IMG/VR virus record: IMGVR_UViG_3300047357_001131
Location: 1 to 27,412 of that record
DNA: 27,412 nucleotides
Direction: 5' to 3' (one strand)
DNA from: a virus
Shown here: in pieces, positions 427-21,952 of the stretch
How positions within the stretch are numbered: the first letter of the stretch is position 1
Layout of the letters: the number at the start of each line of letters is the position of its first letter
Notes under the pieces: generated by a model
Seen by the model: only the letters and a program-made list of their open reading frames with translations
What the model was told of the DNA's origin: nothing
Databases searched by the model: none
Position numbers and translations under genes: made by a program

Positions 427-435
427 TATTTATAA
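427..435 (+). promoter_or_regulatory. TATTTATAA element upstream of the 452 gene
   Basis: Exact copy of the recurring intergenic word, here followed by TAAAA. It lies 16 bases before the ATG at 452, with no Shine-Dalgarno sequence between. It may be a phage late promoter or leader element; its complement reads TTATAAATA. Confidence 0.55.
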
Positions 436-451
436 TAAAAACTCTAATATA

Positions 452-1072
452 ATGAAGAAATCTGAATTAAAATCGTTTATAAAAGAAAACATCGTAGATA
501 CTTTAAATGAAAGCCCTTCATCTGAAGAAATTAGAATGGCAAGACAAGCTGTAGCTAGGTTTATGAAGTATAGAAATGTAGGTGAAAGCCAAGCAATTCG
601 TGATCTAATGAATGCTTTAAAAGAAATCCAACCTAAAGAAGATGATCAACGATATATAGATTATTTAAGAAGAAGTGGTAGAGATAAAGAAGCAGATGAG
701 TTAGTAGGAAAAAATGTTAATCTAAAAGAAGTAGACCCTAAAGATGTTAAACTTCAACAAGATTTAAACGCAGAACTTGAAAAAACTGTACAGTTAAAAA
801 AAGATGCTGGTATTGAAGAAGATATTGATGACGATGATGTAGATGCTGATGCAATTAAAGCTGCAAAAGGAGCTAGAGGTAAACATAAAAAATTAGATTT
901 AGCACTTAAAGCTTTAAAATCAATCACTGCAGAAATGAAATCATTAGCTAGAAAATATAGTCAAGGTGATGAAGCAGAAAAAGAAAAAATTAAAGATATA
1001 TTAAGGAAAAAAACTCCACAAAAGAAAGAACTAGAATCATTAGTTGCAAAGTTAGAAAAAGATGTTGTCTAA
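452..1072 (+). CDS. Hypothetical helical, highly charged protein
   Basis: This 206-residue protein is not recognised. It begins MKKSELKSFIKENIVDTLNE, an amphipathic helix. Most of the rest is rich in Lys, Glu and Asp and predicted helical, with an acidic run IDDDDVDADA at about residues 128-137. There is no signal peptide, membrane segment or Cys. The ATG lies 16 bases after a TATTTATAA element. Its last 11 bases overlap the next gene (ATG at 1062 before the TAA at 1070), suggesting translational coupling with the spanin-like pair. It lies two genes before the terminase, but no feature identifies it as the small terminase subunit; a structural or accessory role is equally possible. Function unknown. 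Confidence 0.75.
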   Translation: MKKSELKSFIKENIVDTLNESPSSEEIRMARQAVARFMKYRNVGESQAIRDLMNALKEIQPKEDDQRYIDYLRRSGRDKEADELVGKNVNLKEVDPKDVKLQQDLNAELEKTVQLKKDAGIEEDIDDDDVDADAIKAAKGARGKHKKLDLALKALKSITAEMKSLARKYSQGDEAEKEKIKDILRKKTPQKKELESLVAKLEKDVV

Positions 1073-1445
1073 AGAAAGATTAATTACTTATAGTATAATT
1101 TTTATTCTATTAAGTGCACTAGTTTATTTTGTATTTTTAGGAGATGAAAAATATGTAGAGGACTATAATATTAAAATAGATGCTTTGGAAGCTAAAGTAG
1201 ATTCTTTACACCATATAAACGATGATTTAGTATTTAAAATAGATACTTTAAATCAACAAATCGTAAAGTTAGATACAGAAATAGACAAGCAAGATAAAAA
1301 GATTGTCACTTTAAAATATAAAGTAAATGAAAAAGTTAATTCCGTTGATTCTTTTAATGATGATGAGCTTACAAGGTTTTTCACAGAGCGTTATAGACAC
1401 TACGAAGATTCAATTAAAAAAGCCGATAGCGCGTCTAGTAATTAA
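1062..1445 (+). CDS. Putative inner-membrane spanin (Rz-like): N-terminal TM plus coiled coil
   Basis: The protein has 127 residues. Residues about 9-27 (TYSIIFILLSALVYFVFLG) form one hydrophobic helix with positive charges before it, so the expected topology is N-in/C-out. Residues about 30-100 form a charged heptad-type coiled coil (for example DALEAKVDSLHHINDDLVFKI), and the tail is polar. This is the layout of phage i-spanins such as lambda Rz. The start overlaps the end of the preceding gene by 11 bases. The last 119 bases overlap, in another frame, a second ORF that begins with a signal peptide, the arrangement known for Rz/Rz1. No homology can be tested here. Alternatives are a membrane-anchored structural or superinfection-exclusion protein. 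The position just before the terminase is compatible with a lysis or late cluster. Confidence 0.5.
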   Translation: MLSKERLITYSIIFILLSALVYFVFLGDEKYVEDYNIKIDALEAKVDSLHHINDDLVFKIDTLNQQIVKLDTEIDKQDKKIVTLKYKVNEKVNSVDSFNDDELTRFFTERYRHYEDSIKKADSASSN

Positions 1446-3310: not shown

Positions 3311-3313
3311 TAA

Positions 3314-3322
3314 TATTTATAA
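3314..3322 (+). promoter_or_regulatory. TATTTATAA element upstream of the portal gene
   Basis: Exact copy of the recurring word, here followed by CAATAA. It lies 19 bases before the portal ATG at 3342, just after the terminase stop. Confidence 0.55.
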
Positions 3323-3341
3323 CAATAATTAATATATAGAA

Positions 3342-5234
3342 ATGGCAAATACAAGCATATTTTCAAGATTACAAAGATTATTTTCAACTGACGTTGTTAT
3401 CAGGAACGTTGGTGGTAATCAAATTAAAACAATAGATTCAGGTCATATACAATCAAGTGGCGAATATGAAACTAATGCTTTAGTTGACCGATTTAATCGA
3501 GTATACTCAACAGCTCCTTCATCTTTATATGGAGCCCAATTTAACTTAAATTATAATTATTTAAGACCCCAACTATATTCAGAATATGATATAATGGATC
3601 AGGATGCTATTATTGCCTCTGCTTTAGATATATTAGCTGATGAATCTACCCTTAAAAATGATATGGGTGAAGTACTTCAAATTAGAAGTTCAAATGAAGA
3701 TATACAAAAAATTCTTTATAATTTATTTTATGATGTATTAAATATTGAATTTAATGCTTGGATGTGGATTAGACAAATGTGTAAGTATGGTGATTTTTTC
3801 CTAAAAATGGAAATATCAGAAAAATTTGGTGTTTATAATGTAATACCTTATACTGCTTATCACATTGAAAGAATGGAAGGTCAAAATCCTGAAAACCCAT
3901 CAGAAGTAAAATTTAGATGGAATCCTGATGGATTCGCAGGTGGTTCTTATGGTTACTATAATGTACCTAATCAAAATGTAAATGATGATAGAGGTGGTAT
4001 TGTGTTTGATAATTACGAAATGGCACATTTTAGATTTGTAGCTGATGTTAATTATCTTCCTTATGGTAGAGCATATATTGAACCAGCTAGAAAATTATTT
4101 AAACAATATACATTAATGGAAGACGCGATGTTAATTCATAGAATTGCTCGTGCTCCAGAAAAAAGAGTATTTTATGTAAACGTTGGAGCTATTCCACCTA
4201 ATGAAGTAGAAGCATTTATGCAGAAAACTATTTCAAGTATGAAACGTACTCCTATGATGGATGAAAAAACAGGTGAATATAACTTGAAATATAACATGCA
4301 AAATATGTTAGAAGATTTCTATATTCCTGTTCGTGGAAATGATAACGCAACAAAAATAGATACTACTCCAGGATTATCATATGATGGTATTCAAGATGTA
4401 GAATATCTAAGAGATAAATTATTTGCTGCTCTTAAAATACCTAAAGCATTCTTAGGATATGATGAAAACACAGAAGGTAAAGCTACATTAGCAGCTGAAG
4501 ATATTAGATTTGCTCGTACAATTGATAGAATACAAAGAATTATACTATCAGAATTTAATAAAATAGCATTAGTACACTTATATACTCAAGGCTATACAGA
4601 TGAGACATTGACAAACTTTGAATTATCAATGACTACTCCATCTATTATATATGACCAAGAAAAAATTGAATTATTAAAAGCTAAAACAGAATTAGCAGGT
4701 TCATTATTAGAACAAGGTTTAGTTCCATCTGATTGGATTTATCATAATGTATTCCACTTTAGTGAAGATCAATATGATGAATATAGAGATTTAGCTCGAG
4801 AAGATGCTAAACGTCAATTTAGATTAGATCAAATAAAAGCAGAAGGTAATGACCCAGTTGCAACTGGTAAATCATATGGTACACCTCATGATTTAGCTTC
4901 ATTATATGGTATGGGTAGAACACAATCAGACCCAGCAAATGTACCTGATGGATATGCTAAAGATGATCCTAAAAAAGGAAGACCAATTGATTCAATGACT
5001 ACAAGAGGTAAACAAGAAAATAATTTTGGTAAAGATCCATTAGGCGTAAAACGTATGAAAGATACAGATAAAAATGATGGTGATGGAAGACCAAGTTTAA
5101 GTGAATCAGAAAGTGCCCATGTAACTTATTTAAAAAACAAGGACATTTTTAGATCTCTTAACAAGAAAAAATTAATATTTGAGGAAGATGAAAACACATC
5201 GTCACTACTTGATGAATCTCAACTAAAAAGCTAA
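3342..5234 (+). CDS. 20: Portal protein (gp20-like)
   Basis: The product has 630 residues and forms the dodecameric ring at the head vertex through which DNA is packaged and to which the neck attaches. The stretch at residues about 80-105 (YSEYDIMDQDAIIASALDIL) and the aromatic-rich helix after it (FNAWMWIRQMCKYGDFFLKM) are typical of the T4 portal family. So is the core at residues about 354-372 (YLRDKLFAALKIPKAFLGYD), followed by EGKATLAAEDIRFARTIDRI. T4 gp20 has 524 residues; the extra length is mainly a polar, low-complexity C-terminal tail after about residue 510. The gene lies between the terminase and the prohead-core genes, as in T4. The start is set by the TATTTATAA element 19 bases upstream and the lack of another good start. 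Confidence 0.93.
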   Translation: MANTSIFSRLQRLFSTDVVIRNVGGNQIKTIDSGHIQSSGEYETNALVDRFNRVYSTAPSSLYGAQFNLNYNYLRPQLYSEYDIMDQDAIIASALDILADESTLKNDMGEVLQIRSSNEDIQKILYNLFYDVLNIEFNAWMWIRQMCKYGDFFLKMEISEKFGVYNVIPYTAYHIERMEGQNPENPSEVKFRWNPDGFAGGSYGYYNVPNQNVNDDRGGIVFDNYEMAHFRFVADVNYLPYGRAYIEPARKLFKQYTLMEDAMLIHRIARAPEKRVFYVNVGAIPPNEVEAFMQKTISSMKRTPMMDEKTGEYNLKYNMQNMLEDFYIPVRGNDNATKIDTTPGLSYDGIQDVEYLRDKLFAALKIPKAFLGYDENTEGKATLAAEDIRFARTIDRIQRIILSEFNKIALVHLYTQGYTDETLTNFELSMTTPSIIYDQEKIELLKAKTELAGSLLEQGLVPSDWIYHNVFHFSEDQYDEYRDLAREDAKRQFRLDQIKAEGNDPVATGKSYGTPHDLASLYGMGRTQSDPANVPDGYAKDDPKKGRPIDSMTTRGKQENNFGKDPLGVKRMKDTDKNDGDGRPSLSESESAHVTYLKNKDIFRSLNKKKLIFEEDENTSSLLDESQLKS

Positions 5235-5243
5235 TATTTATAA
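5235..5243 (+). promoter_or_regulatory. TATTTATAA element upstream of the 5259 gene
   Basis: Exact copy that begins immediately after the portal stop codon and lies 15 bases before the ATG at 5259. In this copy the following bases are ATAAA, making ATTTATAAAT a palindrome. Confidence 0.5.
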
Positions 5244-5258
5244 ATAAATATATTTTTG

Positions 5259-6122: not shown

Positions 6123-7179
6123 ACTTAGTGAAATGTCCAAAACTGCTTCACCAGAAGCAGCAGCAAAAGAACTTGAACGTAAAGATGGAGAAGGATTCCA
6201 AGTAGGTCAAGTTACTTATGCTGCAGATGGTCAATCCAAATCTACTATTACTAATATAGATAGTGAAACAGGTGCTGTTTCTTGGAAAATTACACAATTA
6301 CCTGGATTTGATAAATTATATGACGAAATGGATCAGTTAGTTGATGTATCTAAAAGAGTTTATGTTAAAACTAAGGATGATGATAAATTTAGAGAAATTT
6401 ATGATGAAGCTCGTAAATTAAGAAATAAAGTAAGAACACATCTTAGAAACGAATACCCAGACGAGTATAAAAGAATGACTAGGATTGGTGAAGCTTATAG
6501 TGGTTTTATAAGAAACCCAGAAGACCCAGATTACAAAAAATTTGAACCAACTTCTCAAAGAATAAAGGGAAAAGTAGATCAATTTAAAGAAGATTTAAGA
6601 ACATTATTTGGTAAATTTAAAGGTGATTTAAATAATCCTGATTTTATAAGAGGAGTAGCTGAAATAATGGTTAGTTGGAAATCACTTTTAAGAAGTCAAA
6701 TGTCTGAAACTGATGTAGATGAAGCGTCAATGTCAGGTGCAGCTGGTGCTTATAATACACCATATGCTTTTGTAAGAAAAAAATTAAAAAAAGGTAAAAA
6801 GAAAAAAGGAGTTAAAATGAATAAACCTTCAGGTTTAGTCAATTATATGGATTATTCTGTTAATGAAGGTAATGAAGAAGCTATTACTTATTTTCAACAA
6901 GCAATAAAGTTAAGTCATACTAATAAAGTAAGAAACCTTATATTAAAAGCTGCTAAAGAATTAGGGTTAGAAATCCCTAAAGTATGGACAGAAACTGTAA
7001 ATGAAAATAACAAAAACCCAGGAGCAACATTAGGCCCAGGCCCTAAAGCAAGTGAAAATGGGGTAGCAGATAATGCATATGTAAAACAATTTAAATATAA
7101 ACTAGTTAAGAAAAATAAAGACGGTACTTATGTACAGCCTCCATCAACTTTACCAGTTCGTAAACTTTGGGGAGAATAA
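6106..7179 (+). CDS. Hypothetical probable virion or core protein with basic linker
   Basis: The protein has 357 residues. It starts inside the end of the preceding gene. Residues about 66-200 are charged and helical. A Gly/Ala turn at about 209-216 (MSGAAGAYNTPYAF) is followed by a strongly basic stretch at about 224-240 (RKKLKKGKKKKG). A second helical region lies at about 256-288, and the tail is Gly/Pro-rich and polar (PGATLGPGPKASENG). The basic stretch could contact DNA or an acidic scaffold. No catalytic motif, signal peptide or TM is visible. The position between portal and protease suggests a prohead-core or internal head protein, but function is unknown. Confidence 0.8.
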   Translation: MAYKYKLSEMSKTASPEAAAKELERKDGEGFQVGQVTYAADGQSKSTITNIDSETGAVSWKITQLPGFDKLYDEMDQLVDVSKRVYVKTKDDDKFREIYDEARKLRNKVRTHLRNEYPDEYKRMTRIGEAYSGFIRNPEDPDYKKFEPTSQRIKGKVDQFKEDLRTLFGKFKGDLNNPDFIRGVAEIMVSWKSLLRSQMSETDVDEASMSGAAGAYNTPYAFVRKKLKKGKKKKGVKMNKPSGLVNYMDYSVNEGNEEAITYFQQAIKLSHTNKVRNLILKAAKELGLEIPKVWTETVNENNKNPGATLGPGPKASENGVADNAYVKQFKYKLVKKNKDGTYVQPPSTLPVRKLWGE

Positions 7180-7182
7180 TAA

Positions 7183-7191
7183 TATTTATAA
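7183..7191 (+). promoter_or_regulatory. TATTTATAA element abutting the 7193 start codon
   Basis: Exact copy lying only one base before the ATG at 7193. If it worked as a minus-10 element for plus-strand transcription, the mRNA would begin inside the gene. This copy therefore constrains what the element can be. Confidence 0.45.
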
Positions 7192-7192
7192 C

Positions 7193-7432
7193 ATGAAGGA
7201 TAGACTAGTTAAAGAAGAAGAAGCTAAATTAGAAAAATTCCAACAAAGCCGTATTGATGCTTTTGGGGAAATTGAAGATGAATTAAAATCTCTAATTAAA
7301 CCCTTAAGACAGGCAAAAATAGATACGGTTAAATATTATAGACAAGATGAACCTAAAAGTTATTCTGTCGTTTATGGAACAGATTTAATTAAAGATTATA
7401 TTAAAGATATTAAAACATTATTAGAAAAATAA
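7193..7432 (+). CDS. Small charged helical protein, possible gp67-like prohead core protein
   Basis: The protein has 79 residues from the ATG at 7193. The same frame is open back to an ATG at 7130 inside the preceding gene, but the shorter start is preferred. It directly follows the intergenic TATTTATAA element, and MKDRLVKEEEAKLEKFQQSR is a natural amphipathic helix, whereas the 21 extra residues are not. No other Met is present. The protein is highly charged and probably all helix. T4 gene 67, also next to the portal gene and encoding an 80-residue prohead core protein, is a positional and size parallel; sequence similarity cannot be judged. Only 5 bases separate it from the next gene. Confidence 0.7.
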   Translation: MKDRLVKEEEAKLEKFQQSRIDAFGEIEDELKSLIKPLRQAKIDTVKYYRQDEPKSYSVVYGTDLIKDYIKDIKTLLEK

Positions 7433-8784: not shown

Positions 8785-9384
8785 ATGAAGACATTACTAA
8801 TAGAAACTCACGAGTTTAAGGCCTCACCCCAACAGCTAACTGAAAATGTATCTGAAAATGGTAATTTATTAGTTGAGGGTGTTTTAGCAACTGCTGAAGT
8901 TAAAAACGGTAATGGTCGTTACTACTCTAAAGATTTATGGGAAAGAGAAATGAATAAATATGCTGAACTTGTTGAACAAAGACGTTCAATGGGAGAACTA
9001 GATCACCCTGAATCATCAGTAGTAAATTTAAAAAATGTATCTCACCTAATATCTGATTTTTGGTGGGATGGAGATAACGTAATGGGTAAAATAGAAATTT
9101 TACCTACTCCCTCAGGAAATATACTTAAAGAACTAATAGGACATGGTGTTACAGTAGGTGTATCATCAAGAGGAATGGGTTCATTACAAGATAGAGGTGG
9201 TGTAATGGAAGTACAAGATGACTTTGAATTACTATGTTGGGATTTTGTTTCAACACCATCAAACCCAGGTTCTTATATGCATACTATTAAAGAAGGTAAA
9301 GAAATGGTTAATTATGATTATACAAAAGTTAACCAAATTGTTACTGAGATCCTTTGCTCAAAAGGCTCTTGTCCTGTAATGTAA
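8785..9384 (+). CDS. 21: Prohead maturation protease (gp21-like)
   Basis: This 199-residue serine protease cleaves scaffold, core and capsid proteins during head maturation. After a short N-terminal arm come the strand VEGVLATAEVKNGNGRYYSK (residues 30-49) and GELDHPESSVVNLKNVSHLI (70-89), which carries the catalytic His74. The nucleophile sits in GVTVGVSSRGMGS (121-133), Ser127 or Ser128. LLCWDFVSTPSNPGS (149-163) closes the fold. This is the T4 gp21 / herpesvirus-assemblin-type prohead protease; T4 gp21 has 212 residues, a similar length. The extreme C terminus (ILCSKGSCPVM) holds two Cys. The gene lies just before the scaffold and capsid genes, as in T4. It has no TATTTATAA element and starts 12 bases after the preceding stop. 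Confidence 0.93.
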   Translation: MKTLLIETHEFKASPQQLTENVSENGNLLVEGVLATAEVKNGNGRYYSKDLWEREMNKYAELVEQRRSMGELDHPESSVVNLKNVSHLISDFWWDGDNVMGKIEILPTPSGNILKELIGHGVTVGVSSRGMGSLQDRGGVMEVQDDFELLCWDFVSTPSNPGSYMHTIKEGKEMVNYDYTKVNQIVTEILCSKGSCPVM

Positions 9385-9511
9385 TTTTAAGATATTTTCA
9401 TATACGTATAACCGTAATACATCATGATTATCTTTATATGATGTTAGACTATTAATAATTTTCTATTACGTCTCATGAATAGACGTATTTCACAAACTAA
9501 ATTTTGGGATT
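9385..9511 (+). promoter_or_regulatory. Structured leader between protease and scaffold genes
   Basis: This is the longest gap in the head cluster. It holds a perfect 10-base palindrome TATACGTATA (9401-9410), an inverted repeat CATCAT/ATGATG (9420-9425 and 9438-9443) and a 7-bp hairpin TACGTCT/AGACGTA (9467-9473 and 9481-9487, 7-base loop). No hairpin is followed by a U-run, so none is a standard terminator. The TATTTATAA element is absent. It may hold the promoter or a stabilising 5' structure for the highly expressed scaffold and capsid genes. Confidence 0.45.
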
Positions 9512-12552: not shown

Positions 12553-14049
12553 ATGAATGTACCAATTTATGATGGTTGTCCAATTTGGAACGAAAAATCC
12601 GTACCATTTGGATTCTATAATACCGATACTACATTTCAAATCGATGCTATAAAAGTCACAAAATTTTGTGCTTCAAGGTTAGGTTATCCTTTAGTAGATG
12701 TTGAACTACAATCAAGTTCATTTTTTACGGCATTTGAAGAAGCAGTAACTACATATGGAAATGAATTATATGCATATAAAATACGTGATAATCAATTATC
12801 ACTTGAAGGAATTACAACAGGGTCATCTTTAAACCAGGCATTAATAACACCAAGTTTTGAACCAATTGTTAGATTAACTGAACAATATGGTGAAGAAGCA
12901 GGTAGTGGAGGAAATGTACCGTATTACTCAGGCTCATTCCAATTAACTTCTAGTATTCAAGATTATGATTTCCAAACTTTTATGACAGGAAGTGGATTAA
13001 CAGGGTCTGAATACGAAAATGGTATAGAAGTAAAAAAAGTATATTATGAACCAAAATTCCCAGCATCAGCAAGATATTTAGATCCTTATAATGGATTTGG
13101 ATTTGGAGGTGCTGTAGCAGCAGGTATTGTTGGATTTGGAGGATTTGGTCAAGGAATGGGATATTTAATGGCTCCATTAAATTATGATTTACAAGTAATA
13201 CAACAAATAGAAATGAATGAAATGGTTAGAATGTCTAACTATTCATTTAGAGTACAAGATGATAAATTAAGAATATTCCCTATACCTAATTTTGATGGGA
13301 CATTCCATTCAGGTTCATCTTTACTATTAAATAATGCTTTATCAGCATCCAATCCACCATCAATAACATTTGCAAGTGATTTAACTTCATCTTTAATTGA
13401 TATAACTGGAGGAACTGGTGAAGGTAAAGATGCACAAGGTGTTATTATAGGAAGTCAAGGAACAAATACTACATATGAATTTAAAGTAAAATCATCAGGT
13501 AGTGGATACACAGCTGGTGATGTAATTACAATATCAGCAGCTACTATAGATGGTTCTAGTAATGATATTAGTAATGCATCTGGAGATTTAGTATTTACTT
13601 TAAGAGAACAAGACATAACAGCTATTTGTGGTGGAGGAACTTTATGGTTTGATTACATTTTAAGAGATGAAAGAATAAATAGTTCAGTTAAACAAACTCC
13701 AACTAAAGTTACAAATGTATCAAATGCACCATTTGAAAATCCTACATATGAATTTATTAATTCAGTAGGTAGACAATGGATATTCGAATACACACTAGCT
13801 TTAGCAAAAGAAATGTTAGGGTATGTAAGAGGAAAATATAGTAGTATTCCAATACCAAATGCTGAAGTTAATTTAAATCAAGGTGATTTAATATCAGCAG
13901 CAACAACAGAAAAAGCAGCATTAATAGAAAGATTAAGAACATATCTTGATGAAACATCAAGACAAGCATTATTAAATAGAAGAGCATCTGAGGCTGAATC
14001 TAAGATGATTGAGTTACAACAAGTGCCTTACACAATTTATATAGCATAA
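12553..14049 (+). CDS. 13: Neck protein gp13-like, with inserted beta module
   Basis: This 498-residue protein is a head-completion (neck) protein in the gp13 class. The C-terminal third is the best evidence: LALAKEMLGYVRGKYSSIPI, PNAEVNLNQGDLISAATTEK, and an ending in VPYTIYIA, a strongly conserved pattern in T4-like gp13. The central part has a Gly-rich stretch (residues about 179-204, GFGFGGAVAAGIVGFGGFGQ) followed by QQIEMNEMVRMSNYSFRVQD. T4 gp13 has only 309 residues. Part of the excess is an inserted Gly/Ser/Thr-rich beta segment at residues about 279-358, related in pattern to one in the tail sheath. The next gene starts one base after the stop, forming a 13-14-15 cluster. Confidence 0.75.
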   Translation: MNVPIYDGCPIWNEKSVPFGFYNTDTTFQIDAIKVTKFCASRLGYPLVDVELQSSSFFTAFEEAVTTYGNELYAYKIRDNQLSLEGITTGSSLNQALITPSFEPIVRLTEQYGEEAGSGGNVPYYSGSFQLTSSIQDYDFQTFMTGSGLTGSEYENGIEVKKVYYEPKFPASARYLDPYNGFGFGGAVAAGIVGFGGFGQGMGYLMAPLNYDLQVIQQIEMNEMVRMSNYSFRVQDDKLRIFPIPNFDGTFHSGSSLLLNNALSASNPPSITFASDLTSSLIDITGGTGEGKDAQGVIIGSQGTNTTYEFKVKSSGSGYTAGDVITISAATIDGSSNDISNASGDLVFTLREQDITAICGGGTLWFDYILRDERINSSVKQTPTKVTNVSNAPFENPTYEFINSVGRQWIFEYTLALAKEMLGYVRGKYSSIPIPNAEVNLNQGDLISAATTEKAALIERLRTYLDETSRQALLNRRASEAESKMIELQQVPYTIYIA

Positions 14050-14050
14050 T

Positions 14051-14581
14051 ATGGCAATGTTTACAAGACAAAGGGACTGGTCCCTTATGAGGCACTTAAA
14101 TAGAGAAGTAATGGGTAACATTATAACTCAACAAGCCGCTATCTATCAGTTTCAATTAGAAGAAACAAAAGTTAATATTTACGGTGAAGCAGCTGAAGAA
14201 AAATATTATAATGGTCCTTTTCTATTCAATGTTTTAATTAATAGGTCAAATGAAGAATATGGTGAAAATGTAGAAGGTATCCAATTTAACCAACCTATTG
14301 AATTTTATTTTTTAAGAGATGATTTAGTAGAAAAAGATATAGTACCTAGAGTAGGTGATATCATATTATATCAAGAAGGATATTATGGAGTACAAAGTAC
14401 AGTAGCAAACCAATATTGGGGAGGTAAAAATCCTGAATATCCTAATAATGATTCTGATGGAGAACCTAATCCACTTAATCCTGGATTAGAAGAATTTGGT
14501 AATAACATATCAATTCTAGTTTCAACTTATTATATACCTGCTGATAAAGTAGCTATTTCACCATATCAAGAAAGATTCTAA
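14051..14581 (+). CDS. 14: Neck protein gp14-like
   Basis: The protein has 176 residues. With gp13 it would close the packaged head and present the tail-binding surface. The pattern matches T4-like gp14: an N-terminal helix (RQRDWSLMRHLNREVMGNII), then YQFQLEETKVNIYGEAAEEK. PIEFYFLRDDLVEKDIVPRV and GDIILYQEGYYGVQST follow, then QYWGGKNPEYPNND. T4 gp14 has 256 residues, so this is a short version. Its stop overlaps the next start (TAATG at 14579-14583), pointing to coupled translation with gp15. No membrane or signal segment is present. The order 13-14-15 supports the call. Confidence 0.72.
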   Translation: MAMFTRQRDWSLMRHLNREVMGNIITQQAAIYQFQLEETKVNIYGEAAEEKYYNGPFLFNVLINRSNEEYGENVEGIQFNQPIEFYFLRDDLVEKDIVPRVGDIILYQEGYYGVQSTVANQYWGGKNPEYPNNDSDGEPNPLNPGLEEFGNNISILVSTYYIPADKVAISPYQERF

Positions 14582-15528
14582 TGGCAAAACCAAGAAAACC
14601 CATACCAAAATCACAATTAACCTTAAGCACAAATAAACATACGGCTTTTAGGGGTAGAGAAGAACAAGGGATACAAACTAATCCTAATAATGATATTATC
14701 CCTAATAATCCAAATTACTCAGAAACTGGTATCCAACATAATAGATCGGATCAAATGAGTTTTAGAGATGATGATACTAAACAATTTTCTGTAGGTGTTA
14801 AAGATATTGATGAAGCAGTATTTTATTATTTTGAAAATAAAATTAAACCTTTTGTTTATCAAAATGGAGCTAGAAGAGAAGTACCTATAATATATGGTGC
14901 TCCTGAAAGATGGAAATCATTTCAACGTGATGGATATTATAGAGATAAAAAAGGTGCAATTATGTTACCTATTATCGTATTAAAAAGAGATAAAATAACA
15001 AAAGATAGAACAGTTGCAAATAAATTAGATGCAAATCAACCAAATTTAACTGGGGTATTTTCTAAACAATTTAGTGCTAAAAACTTTTATGGTAATTTTG
15101 CAGCTCTAAATAATAGAATACCAGTAGACACATTTCATGTAGTAGCACAACCAGATTATGTTACTATGGACTATAGTTGTTTAATACAAACTTATTATAT
15201 GGAACAACTAAATAAAATTATTGAAGCATGCGAGTATGCATCAGATGCGTATTGGGGCAATCCTGAAAGATTTATGTTTAGATCATTTATAGATAGTTTT
15301 TCTACAGCCACAGAATTAACAATTAATAAAGATAGGTTGGTTACTGGAACTTTTAATATTAGATTACGTGGATATTTAATCCCTGATACTATACAAAAAG
15401 ATTTAGCATCAACTAAAAAATATAATTCAAAAGCAAAAGTTACAATTAACATGGAAACTGTAAGTGATGTAGAAGGAGCAGGAATACAAACTTCAAACCC
15501 TACTACAGACCATAGAAGTAGAAGTTAA
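14581..15528 (+). CDS. 15: Tail completion/sheath-stabilising protein gp15-like
   Basis: The protein has 315 residues. In T4, gp15 forms the ring at the head-proximal end of the tail and joins it to the neck. The family pattern seen is an N-terminal helix (DIDEAVFYYFENKIKPFVYQ), the strand motif REVPIIYGAPERWKSFQRDG, then KGAIMLPIIVLKRDKITKDR, and a C-terminal beta part (YVTMDYSCLIQTYYMEQLNK, then TGTFNIRLRGYLIPD). The N-terminal 60 residues are polar and probably disordered, and the last 25 are Thr/Ser-rich. T4 gp15 has 272 residues. The position directly after gp14, with start and stop overlapping, fits. The call rests on motif pattern and order. Confidence 0.65.
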   Translation: MAKPRKPIPKSQLTLSTNKHTAFRGREEQGIQTNPNNDIIPNNPNYSETGIQHNRSDQMSFRDDDTKQFSVGVKDIDEAVFYYFENKIKPFVYQNGARREVPIIYGAPERWKSFQRDGYYRDKKGAIMLPIIVLKRDKITKDRTVANKLDANQPNLTGVFSKQFSAKNFYGNFAALNNRIPVDTFHVVAQPDYVTMDYSCLIQTYYMEQLNKIIEACEYASDAYWGNPERFMFRSFIDSFSTATELTINKDRLVTGTFNIRLRGYLIPDTIQKDLASTKKYNSKAKVTINMETVSDVEGAGIQTSNPTTDHRSRS

Positions 15529-15546
15529 TCTTAACAAATAATAACA

Positions 15547-15555
15547 TATTTATAA
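15547..15555 (+). promoter_or_regulatory. TATTTATAA element upstream of the 15576 gene
   Basis: Exact copy, followed by TAAAT, 20 bases before the ATG at 15576. Confidence 0.55.
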
Positions 15556-15575
15556 TAAATTAAAAACCAAAAATT

Positions 15576-15827
15576 ATGGCGAGTAAAAAGTTATCAGAAA
15601 GTGAGTTGCAAATTTTAGAAGAATTCCAAACTAGAAACAATGATATTGTAGTACAGACAGGAGCAACTGAATTAAGAATTGATGTCCTAGAGAGACAAAA
15701 GGAACAACTTTTAGAAAAGTTTCAAAAATTAACAAAAGACCAAGCTAAATTTGGTAAGGAGTTACAAGAAAAGTATGGTGATGGTAATATAGACTTAGAA
15801 AAAGGAGAATTTACCACAGCAGAATAA
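15576..15827 (+). CDS. Small coiled-coil protein between neck and sheath genes
   Basis: This 83-residue protein is not recognised. It is mostly a single charged helix with heptad character (SELQILEEFQTRNNDIVVQT, then TELRIDVLERQKEQLLEKFQ), followed by a short acidic tail. There is no Cys, TM or signal peptide. It has its own TATTTATAA element upstream, and another follows before the sheath gene, so it may be expressed as a separate unit. A role as a tail-assembly helper or minor tail protein is possible from position only. Confidence 0.75.
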   Translation: MASKKLSESELQILEEFQTRNNDIVVQTGATELRIDVLERQKEQLLEKFQKLTKDQAKFGKELQEKYGDGNIDLEKGEFTTAE

Positions 15828-15847
15828 ATTTTTGAGATATTTTCTAA

Positions 15848-15856
15848 TATTTATAA
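15848..15856 (+). promoter_or_regulatory. TATTTATAA element upstream of the sheath gene
   Basis: Exact copy (AATATTTATAATAAAA), 29 bases before the ATG at 15886, the longest spacing seen for this element. Confidence 0.55.
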
Positions 15857-15885
15857 TAAAACAATATTAAATATAATATAAGACA

Positions 15886-17892
15886 ATGGCAGAAACATTA
15901 ATATCTCCAGGTGTATTAGCAAGAGAAAATGATCAATCCTTCATTGGAGCACCACCAATTTCATTTGGTGCTGCAATAATTGGACCAGCAGTTCAAGGTC
16001 CAGTTGGAATTCCAACGGCAGTATCTTCATTCTCGCAATACGAAGCTATATTCGGAGGGTCAATTGAAAGTGGCTCACGATCATACTCATACCTAAACTC
16101 AGCAGCAGCATCTAATTACTTCCAACAAGGTGGTGAATCATTACTAGTCGTAAGAGTAGTTAGTGGATCAGCAGGATGGTCAGAAGCTTCATCTTCAATT
16201 GATAATATAGCTACTACCCCAGCAGGAGTACTGAGAACTGACATTAATATGTCTGCTTCTATTTCAGCAAATACTCTTGCAAGTCAAGTTGCAGGAACAC
16301 ATGCTTTAGGTACAGTTACTGGTGGAGCAGGAAATTCAGCAGCAGGAACATATACAGTAACTGCAGATGGAGTTGTTACTTCAGTTAATTTTACAGCAGG
16401 ACAAGCTTATGTAGCTGGTAACGCATTAACCGTTCAAGGAAGTCAAGGAGGAGGAAGTGGAACATTTGTAATTACTCTTAAAGCTTCAGATTTAGAAAGT
16501 GAAGTAGCATTTAAATTATCTACAATATCAGAAGGTGCTGTAATGAATAATTACCAAGCAGGACCAGATAGTGCAAATGGTACATTAACAAATGGTACTA
16601 GAAATAATGTAAGATGGGAAATTACAGGTGCTAATACAGGATCTGGACAATTTTCATTAGCTATTAGACGTGGTAATGACACAGCTACTCAAAAAGCAGT
16701 ATTAGAACAATACAATAACTTATCAATGGATCCATTGGCTGCAAATTATGTAGAAAAAGTTATTGGTAATACTTACTACTCAGTAGAACAAGATGGTGTT
16801 GATTATTATGTAAAATCAAATGGTGAATATCCAAACAATAGTGCTTATGTTTATGTAAGCGCAGTAAATTCACCTACACCAAATTATTTTGATAATAATG
16901 GAGCAGCTAAACCAGCATATTTTACAAGCATTCCAGCTATAGGATCAGGTTCGTTCCAAGGTGGTAGTGGTAATAATATAGCAATGGGGCCTGTGAAATT
17001 TAACGAAAATATCACGAATACAAACATTCAAGGATTAATTGCAGCAGAATATACACAATCATTAAACTTATTGTCAAATACCGATGCTTACAACTTTAAT
17101 GTAATTACAGCTCCAGGACTAATTAACTCATTATCAGATCACTCACCAGTAGTATCTCAGATGGTAGCATTAGCTCAATCAAGAACTGACTGTATTGCAG
17201 TAGTTGATTTAGTACCTTATAACAGTACAGTAAATACTGTAGTAACTCAAGCATCAGCATTTGATAGTTCATATGCAGCAACATATTGGCCTTGGCTACA
17301 ATCAATTGACGCAAACGCTCAGTATGTTTGGTCGCCAGCTTCTGTGTTTATACCGGGAGTATACGCATTTACAGATGCTTCTTCAGACCCATGGTTCGCA
17401 CCAGCAGGTCTAATTAGAGGTGCGCTAGGTAACGTAGTTAAAGCAGAAAGAAAATTAACATCAGGTAACAGAGATAACCTATATGAAGCAAATGTTAACC
17501 CAATTGCAACATTCCCAGGAAGTGGAGTTGTAGTATTTGGACAGAAAACATTACAGAAAAGAGCAAGTGCTTTAGATAGAGTAAATGTACGTAGATTATT
17601 AATAGCATTAAAATCATACATTGTACAAGTATCAGATAACTTAGTATTTGAACAAAATACAATAAGCACAAGAAATAATTTCTTAGCACAAGTTAACCCA
17701 TACTTAGAAAGTGTACAACAAAGACAAGGTTTATACGCGTTTAAAGTTGTAATGGATGCTACAAATAACACACCAGATGTAATCGATAGAAACGAGCTAG
17801 TAGGACAAATTTACTTACAGCCAACTAAAACAGCTGAATTCATAATTCTAGATTTCAATGTTTTACCAACTGGAGCAACATTTCCATCATAA
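15886..17892 (+). CDS. 18: Contractile tail sheath protein (gp18-like)
   Basis: The product has 668 residues (T4 gp18 has 659) and polymerises around the tail tube, contracting during infection. The N terminus SPGVLARENDQSFIGAPPIS and the early GAAIIGPAVQGPVGIPTAVS with a following EAIFGG are standard sheath signatures. The C-terminal domain (residues about 500-668) shows GLIRGALGNVVKAERKLT, LDRVNVRRLLIALKSYIVQV, and the ending EFIILDFNVLPTGATFPS. The N-terminal part contains a Gly/Thr/Ser-rich beta insertion at residues about 136-204, resembling one in the gp13-like protein. The gene lies directly before the tube gene, as in T4, and has its own upstream element. Confidence 0.95.
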   Translation: MAETLISPGVLARENDQSFIGAPPISFGAAIIGPAVQGPVGIPTAVSSFSQYEAIFGGSIESGSRSYSYLNSAAASNYFQQGGESLLVVRVVSGSAGWSEASSSIDNIATTPAGVLRTDINMSASISANTLASQVAGTHALGTVTGGAGNSAAGTYTVTADGVVTSVNFTAGQAYVAGNALTVQGSQGGGSGTFVITLKASDLESEVAFKLSTISEGAVMNNYQAGPDSANGTLTNGTRNNVRWEITGANTGSGQFSLAIRRGNDTATQKAVLEQYNNLSMDPLAANYVEKVIGNTYYSVEQDGVDYYVKSNGEYPNNSAYVYVSAVNSPTPNYFDNNGAAKPAYFTSIPAIGSGSFQGGSGNNIAMGPVKFNENITNTNIQGLIAAEYTQSLNLLSNTDAYNFNVITAPGLINSLSDHSPVVSQMVALAQSRTDCIAVVDLVPYNSTVNTVVTQASAFDSSYAATYWPWLQSIDANAQYVWSPASVFIPGVYAFTDASSDPWFAPAGLIRGALGNVVKAERKLTSGNRDNLYEANVNPIATFPGSGVVVFGQKTLQKRASALDRVNVRRLLIALKSYIVQVSDNLVFEQNTISTRNNFLAQVNPYLESVQQRQGLYAFKVVMDATNNTPDVIDRNELVGQIYLQPTKTAEFIILDFNVLPTGATFPS

Positions 17893-17908
17893 GAATTAAA
17901 AAACAGAA

Positions 17909-17917
17909 TATTTATAA
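17909..17917 (+). promoter_or_regulatory. TATTTATAA element upstream of the tail tube gene
   Basis: Exact copy (AATATTTATAATAAAA) between sheath and tube genes, 21 bases before the ATG at 17939. Confidence 0.55.
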
Positions 17918-17938
17918 TAAAATAAATAAAATAATAAA

Positions 17939-18427
17939 ATGGCAGTATTAGACCCAAACGAAATATTTTTCACAGCTTTTGAGCCAAAACAAAAGAATAG
18001 ATTTATTCTTTATGTAGATGGAATCCCATCTTACCAGATTAAAGGTATGGGAGCTGTAACAATCTCACAAGGCACAGTAGCTTTAAATCATATCAACGTT
18101 CAAAGATTTGTAAAAGGTAAATCTACTTGGAACCCAATTTCAATGACGTTATTTGATCCAATTACACCATCAGGTGCTCAAGCAGTAATGGAGTGGGTTA
18201 GATTACATCACGAATCAGTAACAGGTAGAGATGGATATAGTGATTTCTATAAAAAAGATCTAACATTAAATGTACTAGGACCTGTAGGTGATATCGTATC
18301 TGAATGGATTATAAAAGGTGCAATCATTACTTCAGCAGATTTCGGAGATTTCAATTGGGACACTGAAAATGCCGCTCAAGAAATTAGCTTAGAAGTACAA
18401 CCAGATTACTGTATATTAAATTTCTAA
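17939..18427 (+). CDS. 19: Tail tube protein (gp19-like)
   Basis: The protein has 162 residues; T4 gp19 has 163. It stacks as hexameric rings to make the inner tube of the contractile tail. The pattern is typical: the N-terminal FEPKQKNRFILYVDGIPSYQ, then IKGMGAVTISQGTVALNHIN. FVKGKSTWNPISMTLFDPIT precedes GAQAVMEWVRLHHESVTGRD, and the end is a VQPDYCILNF strand. It follows the sheath gene and is followed by an intrinsic terminator, matching a very abundant, separately controlled product. The start is supported by the upstream TATTTATAA element. Confidence 0.95.
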   Translation: MAVLDPNEIFFTAFEPKQKNRFILYVDGIPSYQIKGMGAVTISQGTVALNHINVQRFVKGKSTWNPISMTLFDPITPSGAQAVMEWVRLHHESVTGRDGYSDFYKKDLTLNVLGPVGDIVSEWIIKGAIITSADFGDFNWDTENAAQEISLEVQPDYCILNF

Positions 18428-18453
18428 GAAATTTTACGCATATTTTGAAAAAT

Positions 18454-18480
18454 AGCTTGGCTTCGGTCAAGCTTTTTTTT
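18454..18480 (+). terminator. Intrinsic terminator after the tail tube gene
   Basis: The 8-bp stem AGCTTGGC / GTCAAGCT (one G-T pair) has a stable TTCG tetraloop (18462-18465) and is followed by eight T (18473-18480). It lies 26 bases after the tube stop. Confidence 0.93.
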
Positions 18481-18529
18481 ATATTGATATGTATAACTAG
18501 AAACACGTTACGAACTAAATAAAGATTAT

Positions 18530-19258
18530 ATGAGTGATTTTAAATTCCCCACGGAAGAAGTAGATTTACCCTCTAAAGGATTAATTTATTCAAAAGAAAA
18601 CCCACTATCAAGCGGTAAAGTAGAAATGAAATATATGACTGCTAAAGAAGAAGATATTCTTTCTAACCAAGCTTATATTCAAAAAGGTGTAGTATTAGAT
18701 AAATTATTAAAATCATTAATTGTTGATGATAAAATTAATATTGATGATTTAATTGTAGGAGATAAAAATGCATTATTGATTGCATCTAGAGTATTAGGTT
18801 ACGGTAAAGATTATAAAGTAACAGTAGATGAATCAGAACATACTATTGATGTATCTACTTTAGAAAATAGAAAATTCGATGAATCTAAATATGAAGCAGG
18901 TAAAAATGAATTTTCATTTACATTACCAACCTCAGGAACAATTATTACATACCAATTAGTAACTGGAAAACTTGAAAAAGCAATTGAAAGAGAAATTGCT
19001 GGACTAAAGAAAATAAGTAAAGATTCTGCAGCCACTTTAAGTACAAGATATAAACATATGATATTATCAGTTGATGGTAATGAGGAAAAGAAATATATCA
19101 GAGAATGGGTTGATAAAGCATTTTTAGCACGAGATTCTAGAGCCTTCAGAGAACACATTAAAAATAGTCAACCAGATGTTGATTTGTCCTATATTTTGGA
19201 CAATGGGAAGGAGGTAGTTGTACCCATTGGGTTGAACTTTTTTTGGCCTGACGCTTAA
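18530..19258 (+). CDS. 26: gp26-type baseplate/tail chaperone protein; upstream partner of a probable frameshift pair
   Basis: The protein has 242 residues. LPSKGLIYSKENPLSSGKVE (residues 13-32), then MKYMTAKEEDILSNQAYIQK and the helix IDDLIVGDKNALLIASRVLG YGKDY match the T4 baseplate hub gp26 family (Pfam T4_baseplate pattern). In many long-tailed phages this slot, between tube and tape measure, holds a tail assembly chaperone. The C terminus ends LNFFWPDA just after a run of seven T. A plus-one shift there would replace the last five residues and continue into the downstream frame. The gene follows the tube terminator and has no TATTTATAA element. Whether the protein stays in the virion or acts as a chaperone cannot be told. 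Confidence 0.75.
   Translation: MSDFKFPTEEVDLPSKGLIYSKENPLSSGKVEMKYMTAKEEDILSNQAYIQKGVVLDKLLKSLIVDDKINIDDLIVGDKNALLIASRVLGYGKDYKVTVDESEHTIDVSTLENRKFDESKYEAGKNEFSFTLPTSGTIITYQLVTGKLEKAIEREIAGLKKISKDSAATLSTRYKHMILSVDGNEEKKYIREWVDKAFLARDSRAFREHIKNSQPDVDLSYILDNGKEVVVPIGLNFFWPDA
19238..19244 (+). other. T7 slippery run, candidate programmed +1 frameshift site
   Basis: The sequence around it is AAC-TTT-TTT-TGG in the upstream frame. A plus-one (or minus-two) slip of the Phe tRNA on the seven T leads into a frame that is open from 19236 and continues through 19541. The upstream frame stops at 19256-19258, 12 bases after the run. Confidence 0.6.
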
Positions 19259-19292
19259 GACCGCACCCCTAGCAAGGAAGAATTTATTTAAA

Positions 19293-19541
19293 GTGATCCA
19301 TGATATAGTATTTCATGGTAATGGTGGATTTGATTATCACACTGTTTATAATATGCCTATCTGGCTACGAAAATTTACATTTAAAGAAATCCAGGACCAT
19401 TTTGACGCTCAGAATGCTGAAATGAAAAAATTAGATAAAAAGAAAGGGGAAAAAAATATGGTAAATGCAGATGGTAAAATAAATGTACCTGACTTCAAAC
19501 AAGCAAGTGCTCCATATAAAGGTAAAACAAGTTATAAGTAA
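19293..19541 (+). CDS. Downstream half of gp26-like/tail-chaperone pair, probably made by frameshifting
   Basis: The only plausible own start is a GTG at 19293, giving 82 residues. The frame is open from 19236, so the coding region probably begins at the T7 run by plus-one frameshifting. The extra upstream residues would read FFGLTLKTAPLARKNLFK before VIHDIVFHGNGGFDYHTVYN and MPIWLRKFTFKEIQDHF. The protein is compact and aromatic-rich, then ends in a Lys-rich helix and polar tail. No ATG, Shine-Dalgarno or TATTTATAA element precedes the GTG. The layout (tube, chaperone, frameshifted extension, tape measure) is the classical lambda G/GT arrangement. Alternatives are reinitiation at GTG 19293, 34 bases after the upstream stop, or a homopolymer sequencing error splitting one gene. 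Confidence 0.65.
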   Translation: MIHDIVFHGNGGFDYHTVYNMPIWLRKFTFKEIQDHFDAQNAEMKKLDKKKGEKNMVNADGKINVPDFKQASAPYKGKTSYK

Positions 19542-19544
19542 TAA

Positions 19545-19553
19545 TATTTATAA
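19545..19553 (+). promoter_or_regulatory. TATTTATAA element upstream of the tape measure gene
   Basis: Exact copy (AATATTTATAATAAAA), 12 bases before the ATG at 19566 and just after the upstream stop. Confidence 0.55.
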
Positions 19554-19565
19554 TAAAACCTATTA

Positions 19566-21935
19566 ATGGCGGCCGATCCTAAAAAAATTCAAGAACAATT
19601 AAAGCAAATCCAGTCTTTATATGATAGACTTGGAAAAATCAACCCTTATGCAGGAATGGATGCTGGGGAAATTTCTAAGTCTGTAAATGAAGTTAAAAAG
19701 TTAGAAAATGCTTTAATGGGGGTTCAATCTCAAGTAGAGAATATGAGCCAGTCTTTCTCTGATTTAAGTGCCCAATTAGAAGCAACCATAAATGAAATAT
19801 CAAAAGGACCTACTGCAACACAAAAATTTGCTAAAGGTTTTAAAGGGGTACTTGCTGAAGTAAAAAAATTAAAATATGAAGAAGAAGGCCTTGATAGTTT
19901 AAATCTAAGACAGCTTCAAAACCTTAAAAAAAGAGCTCTTAAAAGAACAGCAGATGCTAAAGAGGCAGCGATCCAATTGCTTCAAGAATCTGGTCTTCAA
20001 GGTATGATCAATGAAAAAATTGATAAAAGAACAAAAGCATATAAAGACCTTACTGACGCTCAAAAATCAGCACTTGGATTCTTACAAAAAGAAGACAAAA
20101 CTGTTGAGTCTATAAACAATAAGATTAATAATAGAATAAAGAAAGAGAAAGAGTTATTAGAAAGAATGGGCGGCACAGGTGCTGCGTTAAAGGGGATAGA
20201 AGGGCTTCTACAAAAAATAGGTTTAGGTGATTTATCGAATGCCATGGGCTTCGATCAAATTAATGCGGATTTAAGAGAATTTGCTGAAACTGGAGCAAGC
20301 AGTCAAGAAATATTTCAAAAAGGAATTGAATTATCTGGTGAAGCTATCGAAACAGCCCTCAAAGATCCACTAGTTCAAGTAGCTATAGCAGCAAAAGCCT
20401 TTGCTACTGGGTTTAAAATGTCAATTGGGGCAGTAATAAAAGGCATAAAACAACTAGAAGAAGATACAGGAAAACTAGCTAAAAATCTAAATGTAGGTGC
20501 TCAAGAAGCTAGACAAATGTCAGAAGACTTTGCAGCAGCAGCTATCGGAAGTGATAGATTATTTGTTTCTAGTGAAGGGTTAGCACAAAGTACTGTAGAT
20601 ATAAATGATGCTTTAGGTACAACTGTTAGATTTAATGCCGAAAACTTAGCTACATTTACAAAGTTAAGAGAAACAGCAGGTCTAACTAGTGAAGAAATGA
20701 TGGGGATACAAAAATTATCCCTTGCAACAGGACAATCTTTTGATGATATTGCAGATTCAACATTAAAACAAGTAGCAGCCCTAAATGAATCAACAGGAAT
20801 ACAGATAAATTCTAAAAAGGTTATGGCTGAGATTGCAAATACATCTGAAGCCACACAATTATCTTTAGGAAAAAGTGGTCCTGCATTAGCAGCAGCAATT
20901 ACTACTGCAAAAGGTTTAGGTATGGAATTATCTAAAGTAGAGGATATTGCAGGAAGTATTTTAAATTTCGAACAATCAATACAAGATGAATTAGCAGCTG
21001 AATTACTGTTAGGTAAAAATATTAATTTAGAAAAAGCAAGACAAGCAGCATTAAATAATGACCTTGAAACAGTAGCAACAGAAATAGCTAAACAAGCAGG
21101 ATCAGCAGCTGAGTTTGCAGAAATGAATAGAATTCAACAAGATGCATTAGCTAAAGCTGTTGGTATGTCTAGAGATGAGTTAGGTAAAACTTTATTTATA
21201 CAAGAACAATTAAAAGGAGCTAGTGGTATTGATAAAGAGAATAGAGCTAAAATGCTAGAATCTCTAACAGATCAATATGGTTTAGAAAAAGCCCAACAAA
21301 TGTTAAAAGAAAAAGGGTTAAAAAACTTATTAAACCAAGCTAGTGAAACAGAAAAAATACAAGCATCATTTGATAAAATAAATGAATTTGTTAAAAAGAT
21401 AGGAGCTGCATTTGCTCCTGTTGTAGAAATGATGGGTAGTGTAGCATCCGCCCTTGCACAATCAGAAGTTGCTATGGCAGCTTTAGTAGGTATTCTTGGT
21501 GCTGTTGGAGTAGCATTAACAGTAGTAGCAGGTAAAGCATTATTAAATTTTGCAATTTCTGTTGGTCAGATGTTTGCAAAAGTAGTTGGTGGAATGTCAG
21601 CTTTAGGACCTCCAGGTGTTATAGCAGGTTTAGCATTAGGGGGAGTAGCAGTTGCTGGTGCCATAGGTGCTTATCAGTCATTAAAAGCAGATGATATGGC
21701 AATGGCTCCTTCATCACCTGGTTATGGTGATAGAATATTATCAACACCTAAAGGTTCAATTTCATTAAATAATGAAGATACTGTAGTAGCAGGAACTAAC
21801 TTAGGAGGAGGTAATGGTAAAGCAATGGCAGCAATGGCTAATTCTTTAAAAACAATAGCACAATCATCAGCTGAAACGGCTAAAGGTCTTAAACGACAAA
21901 AACCAGTACCTTTATATCAAATAACGAGAGGTTAA
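19566..21935 (+). CDS. Tail tape measure protein
   Basis: The protein has 789 residues and is long, almost wholly helical and Ala/Lys/Glu-rich. It has two hydrophobic stretches near the C terminus at about residues 636-660 (MAALVGILGAVGVALTVVAG) and 681-705 (GPPGVIAGLALGGVAVAGAI). After them comes the DRILSTPKGSISLNNEDTVV segment, a pattern I associate with C termini of phage tape measures. These features and its place after the chaperone pair identify it as the ruler that sets tail length and passes through the tube at ejection; T4 uses gp29 (590 residues). At about 1.5 angstrom per residue, 789 residues would suggest a tail near 110-120 nm. No lysozyme or peptidase motif was noticed inside it. 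Confidence 0.82.
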   Translation: MAADPKKIQEQLKQIQSLYDRLGKINPYAGMDAGEISKSVNEVKKLENALMGVQSQVENMSQSFSDLSAQLEATINEISKGPTATQKFAKGFKGVLAEVKKLKYEEEGLDSLNLRQLQNLKKRALKRTADAKEAAIQLLQESGLQGMINEKIDKRTKAYKDLTDAQKSALGFLQKEDKTVESINNKINNRIKKEKELLERMGGTGAALKGIEGLLQKIGLGDLSNAMGFDQINADLREFAETGASSQEIFQKGIELSGEAIETALKDPLVQVAIAAKAFATGFKMSIGAVIKGIKQLEEDTGKLAKNLNVGAQEARQMSEDFAAAAIGSDRLFVSSEGLAQSTVDINDALGTTVRFNAENLATFTKLRETAGLTSEEMMGIQKLSLATGQSFDDIADSTLKQVAALNESTGIQINSKKVMAEIANTSEATQLSLGKSGPALAAAITTAKGLGMELSKVEDIAGSILNFEQSIQDELAAELLLGKNINLEKARQAALNNDLETVATEIAKQAGSAAEFAEMNRIQQDALAKAVGMSRDELGKTLFIQEQLKGASGIDKENRAKMLESLTDQYGLEKAQQMLKEKGLKNLLNQASETEKIQASFDKINEFVKKIGAAFAPVVEMMGSVASALAQSEVAMAALVGILGAVGVALTVVAGKALLNFAISVGQMFAKVVGGMSALGPPGVIAGLALGGVAVAGAIGAYQSLKADDMAMAPSSPGYGDRILSTPKGSISLNNEDTVVAGTNLGGGNGKAMAAMANSLKTIAQSSAETAKGLKRQKPVPLYQITRG

Positions 21936-21943
21936 AAAATCAA

Positions 21944-21952
21944 TATTTATAA
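21944..21952 (+). promoter_or_regulatory. TATTTATAA element upstream of the baseplate gene group
   Basis: Exact copy (AATATTTATAATAAAT), 27 bases before the ATG at 21980. It heads a group of four closely spaced genes that runs off the window. Confidence 0.55.

Follow-up and report, generated by a model that had tools for sequence, protein, structure and literature searches.

What reads the short word that recurs ahead of the gene units in the IMG/VR virus record IMGVR_UViG_3300047357_001131, and in which direction is it read? The window analysed here is the whole fragment of 27,412 bases; it encodes a T4-like head and tail cluster with every gene on the + strand, and the genes identified in it comprise the gp17 terminase, gp20 portal, gp21 protease, gp23 capsid, sheath, tube and baseplate genes. 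An initial annotation had singled out an intergenic word, TATTTATAA, and placed three readings side by side: a late promoter reading differently from that of T4 in the sense direction, a T4 late promoter firing antisense, and an element acting in the RNA. The evidence assembled below makes it likely that TATTTATAA forms the core of a phage late promoter in sense orientation, probably read by a phage gp55-like sigma factor in the T4-like mode and with a sequence of its own.

Exact matching finds TATTTATAA on the + strand of the window at precisely the ten positions listed in the initial annotation (427, 3314, 5235, 7183, 12530, 15547, 15848, 17909, 19545 and 21944). All ten copies are intergenic and sense-directed, and the coding DNA of the 26 reading frames that we chose as genes contains no copy on either strand, which bears out an impression first gained by eye. 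The word is present in ten gaps, the intergenic DNA totalling 721 bases, and 2000 shuffles of the gaps gave a mean of 0.30 copies and a maximum of 3, against ten real ones. The both-strand scan against a shuffled background that had been proposed as a check, run on the window, likewise found the word enriched and confined to gaps, with 11 matches versus a mean of 2.64 and a maximum of 7 in 100 whole-window dinucleotide shuffles. The single match on the - strand, at 5238-5246, arises because the copy at 5235 is the palindrome TATTTATAAATA. Seven of the ten copies continue as TATAATAAA, and the distances from the end of the word to the ATG all fall within 1-29 nt, both as originally described.

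Taken as late promoters on the + strand, the copies lie at 425-440 (CATATTTATAATAAAA, 16 nt before gene 452, scoring 21.0 bits with a position weight matrix (PWM) trained on loci L008-L087, for which hits were counted at 10 bits or more), 3312-3327 (19 nt before the gp20 portal gene at 3342), 5233-5248 (the palindromic form, overlapping the sole antisense match, 15 nt before gene 5259), 7181-7196 (1 nt before the ATG at 7193), 12528-12543 (14 nt before gene 12553), 15545-15560 (20 nt before gene 15576), 15846-15861 (29 nt before the tail sheath gene at 15886), 17907-17922 (21 nt before the tail tube gene at 17939), 19543-19558 (12 nt before gene 19566, of 789 aa, for which no orthologous upstream region was obtained) and 21942-21957 (27 nt before gene 21980). 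The copies before the portal, sheath and tube genes are also found in Flavobacterium phage immuto. The copy at 12530 is placed between the ATG and an intrinsic terminator on the + strand (12497-12526, a 9-pair stem plus T run) that follows the capsid gene and lies directly upstream of the word. The copy at 7183 is doubtful: it sits inside an overlapping open reading frame (7130-7432) taken as spurious, recurs in just 5 of 33 orthologous places, and possibly marks a leaderless start whose ATG coincides with the predicted +1.

Megablast of the first 25 kb of the window against a phage collection returned no match. By protein, the terminase is nearest to those of immuto (60%), Microcystis phage Mel-JY01 (52%) and an uncultured 484-kb phage (42%), and a Bacteroidota host is likely for the window phage because its terminase protein is closest to that of Flavobacterium phage immuto. 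In 80 relative loci, the best 80 of at least 599 terminase relatives in a scan of viral contigs, no other 9-mer occurs in as many gaps as TATTTATAA (155 of 353 distinct gaps, 157-fold over the coding rate). Conservation by gene boundary was assessed on the distinct upstream regions of orthologues from every locus fetched; immuto and the record whose terminase is identical were included, and T4, RM378 and one Mel-JY01 piece were left out. Some orthologue starts are non-ATG, so that part of these regions is offset. The exact word is kept upstream of gene 452 (10/10), gp20 (64/68), gene 5259 (55/56), gene 12553 (11/13), gene 15576 (2/2), the sheath gene (5/6), the tube gene (6/6) and gene 21980 (1/1), and TATTTAT is found at all 68 distinct orthologous places upstream of gp20. 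Spacing is kept as well, at 12-20 nt for gp20 and 15-19 nt for gene 5259, and the identical word stands ahead of orthologous genes in immuto, where terminase identity is 60%. Other boundaries consistently do without the exact word (gp17 0/78, gene 7438 0/10, gp21 0/26, gp22 0/23, gene 19293 0/4 and gene 22217 0/2) or show it rarely (gp23 1/21; gene 18530 1/5, or 3/5 by PWM).

Alignment of 136 distinct sites on TATTTATAA, excluding the palindromic TATTTATAAATA, gives A at -1 in 99% and, after the word, T or C, A (93%), A (97%), A/T and A (95%), so that the full motif reads ATATTTATAA[TCA]AA[AT]A; with the palindromes included, among 194 sites that were seeded on TATTTAT, the base following the word is variously A, C or T. 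The box is -10-like, none of 62 gp20 sites having a TTG 18-23 nt upstream, and it is located upstream of genes for virion structure, from which we infer late timing. The host -7 box is described with T-12, A-11, T-8, T-7, T-6 and G-5 (PMC6847099). Aligning the A and TTT of the late box with it, the conserved A ahead of TATTT serving as A-11, would put the RNA start at the second base after the word, which is A in 9 of the 10 window copies; the leaders predicted on this alignment would measure 11-28 nt for nine copies and 0 for the copy at 7183.

Because nearly all gene DNA in the window and its relatives is plus strand (712 kb versus 2.5 kb minus in 81 sequences), direction was judged by bias alone. 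Non-palindromic intergenic copies in these 81 sequences, which were not dereplicated, number 163 sense versus 5 antisense, with 33 in coding DNA. Intergenic PWM hits in ten records amount to 95 sense and 3 antisense; in the seven that remain when G001, G003 and G015 (which contain training loci) are set aside, the counts are 67 and 2, and one of these two antisense hits is a palindromic sense site read from the opposite strand. In the gaps of immuto the bare core [AC]TATTTAT occurs 37 times sense and 3 times antisense. Where an intrinsic terminator is followed by another gene, the core is placed between the two in 14 of 17 gaps, several of which are apparently the same orthologous gap. Intergenic sense PWM hits are scarce elsewhere: the unrelated Cellulophaga phages phi38:1 and phi14:2 have 0 and 1 per 50 kb, T4 has 0 in 44 kb, RM378 1 in 41 kb and LR756508 (484 kb) 0 in 42 kb.

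The complete 160-kb genome of immuto, the isolate of this group from a Bacteroidota host, with Flavobacterium sp. LMO8 as its host in the laboratory, contains two classes of promoter-like sites in separate regions. In a block of small genes at 60-77 kb, a TAnnTTTAG-type box was counted by eye in 22 of 30 upstream gaps; this early box reads TATATTTAG, and such boxes fit the Bacteroidota sigma-A type as described in PMC9723704 and PMC6847099. A host-type array, GTTGC-N~20-TATATTTAGGTAT, was also observed ahead of most genes of this block (about 10,900-26,300 of L089). The interval 60.5-77 kb holds 26 of 35 TTG-N18-22-TAnnTTTAG hits and none of 19 late PWM hits (Fisher p 4e-8), its limits having been set after the hits were seen and one late hit lying just outside, at 60.0 kb. 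The head-tail region (117-160 kb) holds 9 of the 19 late hits and 2 of the 35 host-type hits, and the other late hits are scattered, some near tail fibre genes. The bare core follows the same division, with 1 copy in the block (2,958 gap bases) versus 19 in the head-tail region (1,714 gap bases). TTG is present at 26 of 26 TAnnTTTAGRTA boxes in immuto, and host-type sites cluster also in records G016, G017 and G024, with few in the remaining scanned records.

A candidate for the factor reading the late box is encoded in immuto by gene 153 (L089:28174-28872), which in the three immuto isolates, like its counterpart in Mel-JY01, is annotated 'hypothetical protein'. Over 19 records, the T4 gp55 family profile (phrog_234) matched T4 and, weakly, immuto gene 153 (E 0.008); a further profile, phrog_12791, matched T4 alone. 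Among 26 aligned members of the immuto sigma family, Pfam sigma-70 region 2 is found at E<=1 in 18 and the gp55 PHROG in 11, and the family is present in 5 of 21 records, namely immuto, G016, G017, Mel-JY01 (8e-46) and RM378 (6e-4), T4 not being among them. For an AlphaFold2 model (pLDDT 79, pTM 0.51), VIA-align ranks first T4 gp55 from the gp55-dependent open complex (7d7c_F, Z 9.4, rmsd 5.5 over 132 of 137 residues, 14% identity), tied with two further rows; nearly all the remaining rows listed are sigma factor or RNA polymerase entries. In the viral library of Foldseek the best match is one unnamed protein (E 6e-5), followed by sigma-annotated proteins with weak scores. The C-terminal domain, folded alone (pLDDT 81.5), found no convincing match in the PDB (best Foldseek E 3.0) and is for that reason left unnamed; its best Z, 6.5, is to a domain N-terminal to an integrase domain.

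The sigma gene and the motif are linked in the genome. In immuto, G016 (if circular), G017 and G024 the gene sits just after the cluster of host-type promoters, and its neighbours, genes 151-159, are conserved in six records. The 80 nt after its stop codon contain [AC]TATTTAT in 75 of 77 distinct stretches and the reverse complement in 9; these derive from 87 loci picked by the sigma alone (including L099-L178), many of them close relatives, once duplicates and cut stretches were dropped and the partial L245 left out. In the two stretches lacking the core (L242 and L244) the sigma match stops early, and the late site before gene 154 of immuto reads gatatttatataataaatag. On fold and synteny the protein is a candidate gp55-like sigma, its sequence kinship being weak. 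The suggestion that gp55-like genes be sought elsewhere in the genome thus led to a candidate in immuto and relatives, none being encoded in the window. The sigma was further observed on eight contigs (L238-L245) binned as Winogradskyella, Flavobacteriales and Bacteroidetes and also in non-Bacteroidota bins, such labels being unreliable for phage contigs.

Reading the element on the opposite strand, as a T4-type late promoter TATAAATA from which antisense RNA would run into the upstream gene, has a literal basis, in that TATTTATA is the exact reverse complement of TATAAATA and one window copy is palindromic. The orientation counts nevertheless favour sense throughout (163 versus 5, 67 versus 2 and 37 versus 3), and even when read sense, TATTTATA shares 6 of 8 positions with TATAAATA. 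The element moreover keeps a fixed range to the downstream start (12-20 nt at gp20, 15-19 at gene 5259), stands after terminators and seldom in the opposite orientation, and is conserved beyond its core in flanks (A before, AA[AT]A after) on the sense side; antisense firing would also leave the structural genes without a late promoter, and we regard it as highly improbable. A role in the RNA, where the word would enhance translation or mark a processing site in hosts that lack Shine-Dalgarno control, is in keeping with the closeness of the word to the start codon, with the preference of Flavobacterium translation for A at -3 and A-rich upstream sequence described in PMC6847099, and with Mel-JY01, in which 3 of 9 core-bearing genes of the structural region have the core 13-19 nt from the ATG. 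That phage lacks TATTTATAA but has ATATTTAT before gp20, the tube gene and others: ten copies at 9 of 39 genes of its structural region, four at 13-19 nt and six at 33-37 nt from the ATG, and at 6 of the 9 genes the distance is 33-37 nt, with a GGAG-like (Shine-Dalgarno-like) sequence between core and ATG. The word also heads units and not every gene, follows directly after terminators, and has T, not A, in five of its nine letters. Terminators in 14 of 17 gaps and most Mel-JY01 leaders thus disfavour action in the RNA, which we consider improbable, if somewhat less so than antisense firing.

A promoter it may be and still depend on the main or an alternative sigma factor of the host instead of on a phage gp55-like sigma. 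ATATTTAT does resemble the host -7 box TAnnTTTG and the immuto early box, and TTG lies at the right distance in some sites. The late box does not retain the initial T and final G of the host box, however, the -33 TTG is absent from all 62 gp20 sites, and the same core occurs alongside a sigma homologue in a cyanobacterial phage. It also follows 75 of 77 sigma genes, and two unrelated Cellulophaga phages yielded only 0 and 1 hits; host reading is accordingly unlikely, though the least so of the three. The sense-oriented late promoter of the phage, the first of the readings originally offered, agrees with orientation, position and conservation alike.

Several observations weigh against this reading, the candidate sigma included. 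The box is lacking at gp22 and gp23, and at gp17 of the marine relatives. The strand bias is weaker when palindromes are counted on both strands (213 sense to 65 in the 80 loci) and for exact ATATTTAT in the gaps of the 87 sigma-picked loci (83 sense to 35 antisense), and G016 has one clean antisense intergenic copy. TTG occurs 18-23 nt upstream at 9 of 33 late sites versus 8% of random positions. By gene it is found at 0 of 62 gp20, 26 of 54 gene 5259 and 8 of 10 gene 452 sites, falling at gene 5259 in upstream coding DNA; this excess is gene-specific yet not fully explained, and because of it TTG may have a role at some late sites. As to the protein, the Sigma70_r2 match of the modelled member is under the Pfam curated cut-off, the VIA tool cautions that helical models may reach such Z values by chance, plain Foldseek against the PDB gave no significant match (best E 0.8), and profile-profile comparison with eight gp55 proteins was weak (probability 3%, E 0.015). 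The sigma gene was not found in the window, nor on G001 (56 kb, identical terminase), G003 or G015, on which immuto genes 150-164 have no match either. Blastn of 80 sigma loci against 88 terminase-clade stretches returned nothing at 1e-20 and one 37-base match at 1e-5, a comparison whose positive control worked. The sigma is present at 40% in LR756508, while the 42 kb around its terminase contain no intergenic sense ATATTTAT and one TATTTAT, so the promoter code is not universal with the sigma. For Mel-JY01, ATATTTAT occurs in the gaps of the whole genome 20 times on the + strand and 6 times on the - strand, and within 80 nt of its 17 minus genes there is one copy in each orientation, opposite-strand genes being too scarce to test orientation.

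With the late promoter and its phage sigma as the preferred reading, the following scheme may be proposed. Early genes would use host sigma-A-type promoters (TTG-N~20-TAnnTTT), and these would lead towards the phage sigma gene, its product being a diverged member of the sigma-70 family whose region 2 is gp55-like. This product would redirect host RNA polymerase to the late boxes, which, -10-like and without a -33/-35 partner, would head many structural transcription units of this T4-like group in vivo.

The word had further been described as the main regulatory code of the region, and this holds for most units; the scaffold and capsid genes have another conserved leader. Similarly, genes without the word are mostly coupled to an upstream gene, as claimed, except for four that follow real gaps lacking it, of 127 nt before gp22, 31 nt before gp23, 102 nt before the hub gene (18530) and 34 nt before gene 19293. 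Between gp21 and the scaffold (gp22-like) gene, at 9387-9502, the + strand carries a strongly conserved two-hairpin leader without TATTTATAA. Its two 7-bp hairpins make up 14 pairs, with 224 of 224 cells paired in 16 sequences chosen with a pattern that fixes parts of the element; 7 pairs show two-sided compensatory changes and none one-sided changes, and CATATACGTAT is invariant. The leader has no match in Rfam at the curated threshold. Because its pairs include no G-U, an RNA leader and DNA dyads are both possible, and the element is a possible alternative control for the scaffold and capsid genes. The downstream acidic scaffold-like protein (9512-10723) contains a 21-residue stretch, DARTDAEEEGYKDGMKDEKED, in two tandem copies (9881-9943 and 9953-10015). 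Canonical sigma-70 promoters were also sought in 9000-19500 and discarded, 38 being found versus 47.7 in shuffles. The gap before the hub gene (18428-18529) has a terminator at 18454-18473, the nearest word there being the degenerate ATATTGATATGTATAA, and the immuto gap before the baseplate hub gene has a late hit of 9.1 bits; the window gap may hold a decayed or variant late box.

Elsewhere in the window, an Rfam scan at the curated threshold and a tRNA scan were both empty. Just upstream of the terminase gene (1062-1737), two small genes share 119 bases in different frames. By eye, the product of one has a membrane-like segment at its N-terminus and that of the other begins like a signal peptide, a layout that recalls spanin pairs.

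Compared with known systems, the late box resembles T4 late promoters in consisting of a -10-like box only, described for T4 without -35 conservation (PMC7892883), in heading structural genes with an AT-rich octamer, and in its apparent pairing with a phage protein of the sigma-70 family with a modelled region-2 fold. It differs in its core TATTTATA, two substitutions from TATAAATA, and in the conserved 3' flank AA[AT]A; as the box departs from the T4 consensus in the sense direction, we class it as a variant and not a member of T4 late promoters. Unlike T4 gp55, the putative sigma carries a conserved C-terminal domain peculiar to it. T4 late promoters are activated by the sliding clamp gp45 and the co-activator gp33. 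Profiles for gp45 and DnaN picked out no clamp in the complete genome of immuto, but their sensitivity is doubtful, because Mel-JY01, with annotated clamp-loader genes, gave none either; basal late transcription in T4 is described as working with gp55 alone (PMC7892883). With Bacteroidota sigma-A promoters (-33 TTTG / -7 TAnnTTTG), the type of the small-gene promoters of immuto, the late box shares the A at -11 and the TTT, but it has neither their first T nor their G, and at gp20 no -33 element. T4-like cyanophages belong to the same structural lineage and have gp55, and their late promoter was sought as TATAAAT in the account given in PMC3037559, whereas Mel-JY01 has ATATTTAT. Among the papers listed by searches of open PMC text, none, judged by title and abstract opening, describes this late promoter or sigma.

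Viral contigs hold at least 599 terminase relatives and at least 600 sigma relatives, and the phage group is on that account abundant. Tentatively, and with more doubt than confidence, these phages may form a large T4-like branch, comprising Immutovirus, its relatives from the sea and one or more Microcystis phages, in which late transcription depends on a gp55-like sigma that needs no clamp, has a promoter code of its own in ATATTTAT and bears an added C-terminal domain taking the function of gp33. The phage sigma would set the code, which would be kept across host phyla, and the leaders would adapt to the way the host translates. The contrast to T4 would then lie in a phage with a candidate late sigma but no recognised sliding clamp. 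The pair of sigma and box offers a late switch that can be tested in the T4-like phages of Bacteroidota, and the motif may serve as a promoter predictor for marine phage contigs.

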